Origin: Gallionellales bacterium RIFCSPLOWO2_02_FULL_59_110
GTDB lineage: Bacteria > Pseudomonadota > Gammaproteobacteria > Burkholderiales > Gallionellaceae
Assembly: GCA_001801215.1 (NCBI GenBank)
Contig: MGXA01000011.1
Location: 7,845-58,000, forward strand
Length of the DNA stretch: 50,156 bases
Direction: 5' to 3'
Shown here: positions 5,163 through 8,956 of the stretch, one piece after another
Position numbering within the stretch: the first letter of the stretch is position 1
How the letters are laid out: each line of letters begins with the position of its first letter
Position numbers and translations under genes: made by a program
Notes under the pieces: generated by a model
Databases searched by the model: none
Told to the model about the DNA's origin: nothing
What the model saw: only the letters and a program-made list of their open reading frames with translations

Positions 5163-5942
5163 ATGGCGCGTCAAGCTACACAAGAACCAGGCTGTGCTGC
5201 GATATCCTGCCAGAGTTGCGGCCTTTACCAGTTGTGCCTGCCCATGGGGCTGGACAGCGCAGATACGGCGCTGCTCGACCGTTACGTTAAAAGAAAGCGC
5301 ACTTTCAAACGCGGCCAGGTGCTTTACCGCAGCGGCGATGCCTTTACTTACGTCTATGCCATCCGCAGCGGATCGGTCAAGACCTATATTTCCACCGACG
5401 ATGGCCGTCTGCAAATTACCGGTTTTCACGTCCCAGGTGAACTGCTCGGCTTGAACGCCATTGACGAAAAACGCTATAGCTGCGAAGCGGTGGCGCTGGA
5501 AACTACCTCGGTATGCGAAATTTCGGTGGCTTGCTTCGAGGAGCTGGCGCGGCAGATTCCGTCGGTGCATTACCAGATGCTCAGGATGATGAGCAAGGAA
5601 ATCAGACACAACCAGGAATTGATGCTGCTGCTCGGCAAGAAAAATGCGGAAGAGCGGCTGGCAACCTACCTGCTGTCGCTATCGCGGCGTTTCGCGATGC
5701 GCAATTACTCCCCGACCCAGTTCAATCTGAGCATGTCGCGCGGAGATATCGGCAATTATCTGGGCATTGCCGAAGAGACCGTCAGCCGCATATTTAGCCG
5801 CTTTCAGGAAGAAGGGGTGATCTCCAGCGAACGCAGGCACATTATTCTGAAAGATATCAAACGCCTTAACGCCATTGCGCATGAGCCTTCTTCCGCCGCA
5901 CCGCTAGCTTTGCCGCTGGTGCAGGCCTTGCATTCCCGCTGA
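5163..5942 (+). CDS. fnr: FNR-type oxygen-responsive transcription regulator
   Basis: A 259-residue Crp/Fnr-family regulator. The N-terminus has C16-x2-C19-x5-C25, the same spacing as the three N-terminal cluster cysteines of E. coli FNR, and C107 in RYSCEAV matches the fourth ligand. An oxygen-labile [4Fe-4S] cluster is therefore expected. A cyclic-nucleotide-like beta barrel (about 35-150) and a dimerisation helix follow. The C-terminal helix-turn-helix contains SRGDIGNYLG and EETVSRIFSRF, with the recognition-helix E, S and R that read TTGA half sites in FNR. The ATG is preceded by GGAG. Its neighbours downstream, OmpW and cbb3 oxidase, are typical FNR/ANR targets, and two TTGA-N6-TCAG elements lie at 6050 and 6922. 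The residues beyond about 240 are a short, poorly conserved tail. Confidence 0.93.
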   Translation: MARQATQEPGCAAISCQSCGLYQLCLPMGLDSADTALLDRYVKRKRTFKRGQVLYRSGDAFTYVYAIRSGSVKTYISTDDGRLQITGFHVPGELLGLNAIDEKRYSCEAVALETTSVCEISVACFEELARQIPSVHYQMLRMMSKEIRHNQELMLLLGKKNAEERLATYLLSLSRRFAMRNYSPTQFNLSMSRGDIGNYLGIAEETVSRIFSRFQEEGVISSERRHIILKDIKRLNAIAHEPSSAAPLALPLVQALHSR

Positions 5943-6049: not shown

Positions 6050-6063
6050 TTGACGCGCGTCAG
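6050..6063 (+). promoter_or_regulatory. FNR-type box or weak hairpin terminator, copy 1
   Basis: TTGACGCGCGTCAG matches the FNR-superfamily core TTGA-N6-TCAA in 7 of 8 positions. It lies about 120 bases before ompW and 107 bases after fnr. It can also fold into a 4-5 bp hairpin followed by seven T residues (6066-6072), so it could instead end fnr transcription. A near-identical copy lies at 6922. Confidence 0.5.
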
Positions 6064-6921: not shown

Positions 6922-6935
6922 TTGACGTGCGTCAG
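6922..6935 (+). promoter_or_regulatory. FNR-type box or weak hairpin terminator, copy 2
   Basis: TTGACGTGCGTCAG differs from the copy at 6050 by one base, and the following GGTTTTTT is shared too. It sits 87 bases after the ompW stop and ahead of the candidate small RNA. If it is a class II FNR site, the -10 would fall near 6958-6963 (GAAAAT) and the start near 6970. It could also be the ompW terminator: a 4-5 bp stem followed by six T residues. Confidence 0.5.
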
Positions 6936-6969
6936 GGTTTTTTCCGGCTTTTGAACAGAAAATAGCATG

Positions 6970-7084
6970 GAGCAAAGTAAGCCTCTGCCAGTTTGCTTTG
7001 CTTCTTCTGTACGCAATAGTGTTGTGTGCGTTGGTGCCGGCCGTTTGCAGCGACCTCTCCCCAGTTGCGAACGGCCCTTTTTTT
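6970..7084 (+). ncRNA. Candidate FNR-linked small RNA with CU-rich loops
   Basis: No open frame is convincing here, but the stretch ends in a strong intrinsic terminator and begins about 41 bases after the centre of an FNR-type box. Three stem-loops can be drawn by eye: 6971-6977 with 6996-7002 (AGCAAAG/CTTTGCT); 7011-7015 with 7027-7031 (ACGCA/TGCGT); and the terminator stem 7039-7049 with 7066-7076. CCTCT occurs in the first loop (6982) and CCTCTCCCC in the terminator loop (7054). Both could pair with Shine-Dalgarno sequences, as the CU-rich loops of several known regulatory RNAs do. FNR-activated sRNAs (FnrS of enterobacteria, PhrS of Pseudomonas) are precedents for the arrangement; no sequence homology to them is claimed. 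The 5' end is predicted, and an ompW 3'-UTR-derived RNA is an alternative. Confidence 0.5.
7039..7084 (+). terminator. Strong intrinsic terminator between ompW and ccoN
   Basis: GGCCGTTTGCA pairs with TTGCGAACGGCC to give about 11 bp with one GU pair and a 16-base loop, followed by seven T residues (7078-7084). This is the best intrinsic terminator in this part of the window. Confidence 0.88.
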
Positions 7085-7528
7085 GTAAAGCAAATCGTTT
7101 TGGTTCAGGATGGATAGCCCGTGTTTGGATGTTATAAAAAAATCTTATTCGGCTGTAAGGCAGATCGCCCGGCTCGCTTATCCCTTCCGCTGTCCATAGA
7201 ATTGCCTTCCCTCTTGAAAAAATGTGCACTACACTACCAAGGCATTGGTTGTCGCACCACAAAGTTTGAGCCGGTTCTTGTATTTCTTACCCTATGTAAA
7301 GGAATGCTCATGAAACGAGTAGCTTTGACCGCAGTGCCGCAAACCTGCCTCTGCAGCGACATCACGCTAATCGCTTCCGCCAGCGAATCCATCCACCGCC
7401 CCCGCCCATCCGCCAACACAGGGCGGCACCTGGATTGCGCCAAGGCTTTCTCTCAATCTGCTGCTTTTCCAGCCCGGCTTCATTTTTGTAAATAACATAT
7501 TGTTCTTAACTCGCCTCAAGGAGATATT
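7085..7528. other. Upstream region of ccoN without a firm gene
   Basis: 444 bases between the intrinsic terminator and the ccoN start. The region must carry the ccoN promoter, but no good -35/-10 pair or clear FNR box is visible. A GTTATAAAAAA tract at 7131 is a possible -10 without a matching -35. A doubtful 61-codon frame lies at 7310-7495. Confidence 0.45.
7310..7495 (+). pseudogene. Possible remnant of a small exported-protein gene
   Basis: ATG preceded by AAGGAATGCTC opens a 61-codon frame whose first 25 residues (MKRVALTAVPQTCLCSDITL, then IASAS) resemble a signal peptide damaged by polar and cysteine/proline residues. The remainder is proline- and histidine-rich with no recognisable fold and ends just before ccoN. 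It could be a decayed exported-protein gene, a short real peptide or chance. The rest of the 7085-7528 stretch shows no other gene; it must contain the ccoN promoter, which I cannot place. Confidence 0.2.
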
Positions 7529-8956
7529 GTGGAAACAACTCAAGCGGCACCAATAAAATACGACATGGACGTCGTCAGATGGTTTTCCATCGCGGCGGTA
7601 ATCTATTTTGTGGTGGGTACGTTAATCGGCGTGTGGATTGCCGCAGAACTTGCGTGGCCGGCGCTGAACTTTATTCCCGAAATTGCCTTCGGTCGCCTGC
7701 GGCCGCTGCATACCAATGCGGTGATTTTCGCGTTCGGCGGCTGCACCCTGATGGCCACCGGCTTTTACATCGTGCAACGCACCGGCTCGACCCGGTTGTG
7801 GAGCAACGGCCTGGCGTGGTTCACCTTCTGGGGCTGGAACCTGATCATTGTCCTGGCGGTAATCACCCTGCCCCTCGGGATTACCCAGTCCAAGGAATAC
7901 GCCGAGCTGGAATGGCCGATCGATATCCTGATCGCCGTGGTCTGGCTGGCATTCGGGCTGAACTACATCATGACCATAGCGATCCGTAAGACATCGCATA
8001 TTTACGTGTCCAACTGGTTCTTCATGGGCATGATCGTGATGATCACTTATCTGCACGTGGTGAACAGCCTCGCCCTCCCGGTCAGCCTGACCAAGTCCTA
8101 CTCCATTTTCTCGGGCGTACAGGACGCCATGATTCAGTGGTGGTGGGGGCATAACGCGGTAGGCTTTTATCTGACTGCGGGCTTCCTGGGCATCATGTAC
8201 TACTTCGTGCCCAAACAGGCCAACCGCCCGGTGTTCTCGTACCGGTTGTCCGTGCTGCACTTCTGGACGCTGATGTTCGGCTATGTATGGCTGGGTGCGC
8301 ACCATCTGCAATACACCGCGTTGCCCGACTGGACCGGTTCTCTGGGCGCCGCAATTTCCCTGGCGATGATTATTCCGTCCTGGGGCGGTGCGATGAACGG
8401 CATGATGACCCTGTCCGGCGCATGGGACCGTCTGCGCACCGATTACATCCTGCGCTTCCTGGTGGTCGCTCTGGCGTTTTATGCGATGTCCACCTTCGAA
8501 GGCCCCGTGATGTCGATCAAGACCGTGAATGCCCTGTCGCATTACACCGACTGGACGATCGGCCATGTGCACTCCGGCGCGCTGGGCTGGGTAGCAATGG
8601 TCTCCATCGGCGCGCTTTACCATCTGGTGAAAAAACTGTGGAACACCGAGATGTATTCCGACAGCCTGGTCAACGTGCATTTCTGGCTGTCCACCATCGG
8701 CACCGTGGTCTACATCGTGGCGATGTGGGTGTCGGGCATCATGCAGGGTCTGATGTGGCGCGATTACGACGAATACGGCACATTGACCTATACCTTTGTC
8801 GAATCGGTTTCCGCGATGCATCCATACTATGCGATGCGCACCATCGGCGGGATCATTTTCAATCTGGGCGCGTGGATCATGCTGTACAACGTGGTGATGA
8901 CGGTGCGTCAGGCAGGCGCTACGCGCCTTGCCAAAGCCGTTACGGCGCAAGCATAA
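7529..8956 (+). CDS. ccoN: cbb3-type cytochrome c oxidase catalytic subunit I
   Basis: CcoN is the heme-copper core of the high-affinity cbb3 oxidase, reducing oxygen to water at the cytoplasmic membrane under low oxygen. The 475 residues form about 12 membrane helices, the normal length. Candidate metal ligands are visible: H61 in [12 protein letters not shown] (low-spin heme b), H208 in WGHNAVGF and H258/H259 in GAHHLQY (CuB), and H346/H348 in [10 protein letters not shown] (high-spin and low-spin heme). The start is GTG at 7529, set by an AAGGAGATATT ribosome site just upstream and the typical short N-terminal extension before the first helix. It opens the ccoNOQP operon; ccoO follows after 10 bases with its own AGGAGG. 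Confidence 0.97.

Follow-up and report, generated by a model that had tools for sequence, protein, structure and literature searches.

A candidate FNR-activated small RNA between ompW and the cbb3 oxidase operon in Gallionellaceae

In Escherichia coli, FNR activates the small RNA (sRNA) FnrS through a class-II site centred at -41.5, and the RNA ends at an intrinsic terminator (PMC3032703). Its meningococcal counterpart in this comparison, AniS, is induced by anoxia and linked to Hfq (PMC4423775), and the FNR site of the gonococcal FnrS is predicted to be of class II (PMC3032703, PMC4423775). Other sRNAs are relevant here for the segments with which they pair. In Neisseria meningitidis, the sibling sRNAs NmsR have a UC-rich linker between two stem-loops and a UC-rich loop that complement Shine-Dalgarno sequences (PMC5362039). 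The anti-Shine-Dalgarno motifs of alpha-r14 (NfeR1) are unpaired on variable stems, an identical CCUCCUCCC being present in each of three hairpins (PMC10746234), and the C/U-rich terminator loop of RepG from Helicobacter pylori pairs with a G-repeat in tlpB (PMC8295292). These statements, and the comparisons drawn from them at the end of this article, follow extracts of the papers cited.

The locus described here belongs to Gallionellales bacterium RIFCSPLOWO2_02_FULL_59_110 and lies in a 50,156-nucleotide stretch of contig MGXA01000011.1, hereafter the window, to which all coordinates refer. An FNR-type box, TTGACGTGCGTCAG (6922–6935, + strand; centre 6928.5), is followed by a -10 element, GAAAAT (6958–6963, +), and by an intrinsic terminator made of a hairpin and a U-run (7039–7084, +), all three exactly where the original prediction of an FNR-controlled sRNA had placed them. 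If the RNA starts at 6970, as the spacing suggests, the centre of the box falls at -41.5, and the predicted sRNA would occupy positions 6970–7084 (+), its end being given by the T-run. The terminator has a 13-pair stem (arms 7039–7051 and 7064–7076) and seven T at 7078–7084; a simple scanner misses it because the 12-nt loop exceeds the scanner limit of 8. Likewise, this consensus scanner reported no sigma-70-type promoter at the RNA locus. Three matches to the FNR-box pattern with one mismatch are present in the window against 2.27 expected, a count that is not significant, and the pattern count for FNR-type boxes in the whole genome is 46. Since the box is unremarkable by count and the consensus scanner is silent on both promoter and terminator, the case rests on conservation.

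The BLAST comparison across 158 genomes of the family detected clear relatives, in the same genus. A covariance model made from an alignment of the nine complete sequences, that of the window included, matches 28 of these 158 genomes at E ≤ 1 and 11 at E ≤ 4.5e-6. All 11 belong to the genus of the window and correspond to the nine complete carriers, to G086, whose contig begins inside the RNA, and to G034, a decayed copy with a terminator lacking its 3' arm. Another decayed copy, in G088 (E 1.3e-3), has lost most of hairpin 2 and the T-run, and the other matches in the family are weak (at most 27.6 bits). The complete element is thereby found in 9/76 genomes of the genus (window included), with one copy cut by a contig end and two decayed. 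So that the window would not be searched with a model it had helped to train, another model was derived from its eight relatives only; run with filters off, this gives a single match in the 50-kb window, at 6976–7083 (53.6 bits, E 3e-12). These comparisons rest on few sequences from one genus. A pattern scan of named genomes, which may omit the window's own genome, returned nine stretches with the titles Candidatus Ferrigenium altingense and bremense, Gallionella sp. (five), Gallionellales bacterium and Nitrosomonadales bacterium. The two Ferrigenium carriers are altingense AG11 and bremense BP06, for which there are enrichment cultures.

At the level of the order, 12 of 399 genomes match the model at E ≤ 0.01, the window's own included, and the others reach at most 36 bits; few known carriers are inside this sample, and stricter filters were applied to it. 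The best matches of six of the 11 other order genomes, together with L046 from the family search, were inspected for an FNR box within 150 bases upstream, and none was present at L044, L045, L046 or L152–L155. Four of these loci (L044, L045, L046 and L153) have GGCCGTT-type terminators and two (L154 and L155) inverted GCCGTCTGAA repeats, L152 having neither; a wider spread of the RNA was not retained. At L154 and L155, which come from another family, the terminators are formed by the inverted GCCGTCTGAA repeats, and the terminator stem of the sRNA resembles them. We take these repeats to be like the Neisseria DNA uptake sequence.

For the RNA of the window (6970–7085), the predicted fold has three hairpins and an energy of -48.7 kcal/mol (z -6.3), and none of 200 shuffled sequences is equally stable; the whole-RNA z values of the nine full sequences lie between -1.6 and -6.8. 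Every one of the nine has the terminator hairpin in its minimum-energy fold. Hairpin 2 (7008–7030, +), common to the relatives, appears in seven and is absent in G016 and G071. Hairpin 1 (6970–7003, +), with CCTCT in its loop, is strong in the window and altered or missing among the relatives. Of the three stems originally predicted, the second and third are thus kept, whereas the 5' stem with the CCTCT loop is not. The covariance search that had been suggested as a check did recover complete orthologues with stems 2 and 3, stem 1 being the one that fails on conservation.

In an alignment of 12 sequences that was fitted to the covariance model, and is hence biased towards it, hairpins 2 and 3 have standard pairs in 95.6% of 228 cells. 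None of 500 shuffles matches their pairing or covariation score, and slid controls pair at 26–53%. Both bases have changed in three pairs of the terminator stem and in no pair of hairpin 2; this number is reached by 4/500 shuffles. As the slid controls likewise attain three such pairs and hairpin 2 has none, the covariation is modest.

The upstream signals are conserved as well. Each of the nine complete carriers retains the TTGA-N6-TCAG box and a -10 element of the form NARAAT, as do the decayed copies of G034 and G088, and the distance between them, first base to first base, is 36 nt without variation in those 11 genomes. A regulator is encoded nearby: the oxygen-sensing fnr gene (5163–5942, +; NCBIfam PRK11161 (Fnr), 267.4 bits, cut-off 228), whose translation has the N-terminal arrangement C-x4-C-x2-C-x5-C. 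The FNR control that had been predicted is therefore supported by the box, by its spacing and by an adjacent FNR that scores above the NCBIfam cut-off.

Two pyrimidine-rich segments are present in the RNA. The first, CTTCTTCT (7001–7008, +), overlaps the ends of hairpins 1 and 2, and the second, CCTCTCCCC (7054–7062, +; unpaired probability 0.99), lies in the terminator loop and is the proposed pairing site. A run of at least five pyrimidines precedes hairpin 2 in 9/9 sequences, the mean unpaired probability of this segment being 0.51 in the window and 0.31–0.91 over the nine; a run of at least five also occupies the terminator loop in every one of the nine carriers (unpaired probability 0.63–0.99). 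When 72 distinct terminator-like stems from the DNA analysed were compared, the loop run was found in 10 of 11 sRNA-type stems and in 3 of 61 others (Fisher's test, 5.6e-9, homologous loops not being independent). The eleventh sRNA-type stem, without the run, resembles an unrelated terminator. According to the folding models, the RNA has conserved, unpaired, pyrimidine-rich motifs such as those of anti-Shine-Dalgarno sRNAs, the segment before hairpin 2 being the less unpaired of the two.

The terminator loop is predicted to pair well with the ccoN Shine-Dalgarno sequence in every species. The mean energy for the loop alone is -13.0 kcal/mol in matched and -13.2 kcal/mol in mismatched combinations of nine species (p 0.55); as the pairing is no better within than between species, it gives no evidence of a specific target. 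Matched-species pairing of the loop alone with ccp, ompW, fnr, ccoO, ccoP and a pabB-like gene gave p values of 0.29 to 0.92. A single site elsewhere in the genome is exactly complementary to part of the loop. It was rejected as a target: it has long frames on the opposite strand and no start-codon context recognizable as that of a target.

In the relatives, fnr is followed in some cases by ompW, then by the RNA, a gene for a di-haem cytochrome c peroxidase (PF03150) and ccoNOQP. The gene ompW stands between fnr and the RNA in four of the nine complete carriers (window, G071, G015 and G080). Six of the nine have a full-length peroxidase gene, the window and G080 have only a remnant of it, and G029 lacks it altogether; the RNA consequently occurs with and without either gene. 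In the window the remnant lies at 7310–7495, and the start of the peroxidase gene survives with its upstream region before ccoN, the first gene of the cbb3 oxidase operon (7529–8956, +; TIGR00780, 679.5 bits, cut-off 583.15). The upstream region of the lost gene (7200–7309, +), delimited by an alignment of 10 loci, contains TGTGNNNTACACTA, an element located between the terminator and the peroxidase gene in 10/10 aligned loci and retained in the window despite the loss of the gene. It is possible that this region could now serve as a promoter ahead of ccoN.

Other features of these intergenic regions were observed. An inverted repeat, TTGTCGCACCACAA (TTG-N8-CAA; 7249–7262), lies just 3' of the TACACT element of the lost peroxidase gene, and a similar stretch exists in most aligned relatives. 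Before the Shine-Dalgarno sequence of ccoN there is a T-rich stretch like CATTGTTTTTAAC (7480–7528), which recurs in most carriers. A second FNR-type box, with a different -10 region, is found upstream of ompW at 6050–6063, and boxes like it precede ompW in G071, G015 and G080. In G086 (L070, 179–340), ompW has a second FNR box upstream, and after this box comes a stretch with a faint likeness to the RNA (5.5 bits), perhaps a decayed duplicate.

The arrangement allows a different reading, in which the stretch forms the leader of the operon that follows, ccoNOQP in the window and ccp-ccoNOQP in most carriers: transcription would start under FNR at about 6970, the terminator would be an attenuator that lets the polymerase pass in certain conditions, and the short RNA would be a by-product or have a second function. 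Promoters of the same type are indeed found directly upstream of ccoN, with no RNA, in G033, G055 and G051 and, outside the genus, in G157; the other genomes of the genus have a different box or no such box before ccoN, in a comparison of 38 loci of which two have no ccoN. When nine loci lacking the RNA were searched with the RNA model, two weak matches appeared (12.8 and 11.5 bits), neither 3' of the box. Moreover, neither the window nor any of the other eight complete carriers has a further box of the TTGA-N6-TCA form before ccoN. This speaks for a leader, as do the promoters retained by the decayed copies and the terminator 5' arm, which is partly paired upstream in the nascent folds of several species. 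However, these nascent pairings differ among species (a weak test, concerning only the pairing of the arm), no leader frame is conserved, and attenuation does not require a conserved pyrimidine loop. The promoter-like TGTGNNNTACACTA element downstream of the terminator also argues against a leader, and so does G086, where ompW with its own box separates the RNA from ccoN. We consider that a leader as the explanation of the element is unlikely, although an sRNA and a leader are compatible and the RNA could be both at once.

It could also be imagined that the stretch merely ends the ompW (or fnr) transcript, as its 3' untranslated region and terminator, the FNR-like box being there by chance. 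No other terminator is evident in the window between ompW and 7039, but in five of the nine complete carriers fnr and the RNA are not separated by ompW, which weakens the idea, and box, -10 element and spacing are kept in all nine; this origin thus appears improbable. The possibility that the stretch encodes a small protein can be given hardly any credit: frames of at least 10 codons exist in 9/9 sequences, but comparison of the nine detected no conserved reading frame within the RNA and none common to the relatives as a whole, in agreement with the original view that no open frame is convincing, and a Shine-Dalgarno-like sequence accompanies only one listed frame, of 12 codons, in G015.

The element is real and conserved, it is new as a family, and it is most likely a regulator of a known kind. 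With an FNR site at about -41.5 from its presumed start, an intrinsic terminator and no conserved frame, the RNA fits the FNR-activated sRNAs, and we think it probable that it is a self-terminating sRNA of about 100–115 nt expressed under FNR. At low oxygen, FNR would bind at -41.5 and activate transcription from about 6970, and the polymerase would stop at 7084. The RNA would then act with Hfq, which is encoded in the genome and would probably bind the U-tail. Above all the terminator loop, and in addition the segment before hairpin 2, would pair with Shine-Dalgarno regions and so lower the translation of chosen mRNAs.

The origin of the gene can be approached from two phylogenies. The carriers fall in three places in a CcoN tree of 37 sequences. 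In an FNR tree of 15 sequences (at least 60% identity), eight of the nine carriers and G034 form one group with a support of 0.87, G029 standing apart. Taken together, and with mixed supports, the trees suggest that the RNA follows fnr and not a single oxidase lineage. Because the promoter found here directly serves the cbb3 oxidase in some relatives that lack the RNA, the simplest history may be that the RNA gene captured the FNR promoter of the oxidase. The captured promoter would probably have been that of the cbb3 operon, once the RNA, mostly together with the peroxidase gene, lay before ccoN. A more elaborate scenario, which we put forward tentatively and regard as doubtful, would make one promoter serve a cis attenuator and a trans regulator: the captured FNR promoter would produce the sRNA, the oxidase would be left to the promoter of the peroxidase gene and to read-through, and the sRNA would tune respiratory mRNAs at their Shine-Dalgarno sequences.

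No description of an sRNA in the iron oxidisers Gallionella or Ferrigenium was found in the literature searched, and the main text of a Gallionellaceae pangenome paper (PMC10734462) contains no reference to sRNA, small RNA or FNR. As these bacteria live at low oxygen, an oxygen-controlled sRNA beside the high-affinity oxidase would provide a handle on the post-transcriptional control of iron-dependent respiration. The carriers, the decayed copies and the relatives having only the promoter would also offer a case of an sRNA gene arising behind an existing regulated promoter.

The claim of a new sRNA family agrees with the search of Rfam 15, which at the gathering threshold detected only a tRNA in the window and nothing in the loci of six relatives, and at lax thresholds no credible family. 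The best match of the window is AniS (RF02274; 17.1 bits against a gathering threshold of 50, E 0.64–1), which was examined further because it spans the full RNA. Membership was rejected, as the alignment misplaces the terminator and the score is below the threshold; AniS is absent from the matches listed at E 10 for the other carriers. Best scores for anti-hemB (RF02837) and SorX (RF02784) are 23.2 and 16.0 bits (thresholds 49.5 and 46.6), and the likeness consists of short aligned CCUCCC-type stretches.

Compared with the systems introduced above, the RNA is unlike FnrS and AniS in sequence and genomic place but resembles them, as far as the extracts describe them, in its class-II FNR site, its shortness and its intrinsic terminator. 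Its pyrimidine segments are similar to those of NmsR, with the difference that the loop here is that of the terminator; FNR control is not mentioned for NmsR in the extract cited. By contrast with alpha-r14, which in its extract belongs to the NtrBC network of alphaproteobacteria and has identical CCUCCUCCC motifs, the present RNA has two less strict motifs. With RepG it shares a C/U-rich terminator loop, FNR control being unmentioned in the extract on RepG. By sequence in no tested family, the RNA is likeliest to be one that is controlled in the manner of FnrS and AniS and carries pairing motifs like those of NmsR, alpha-r14 and RepG.
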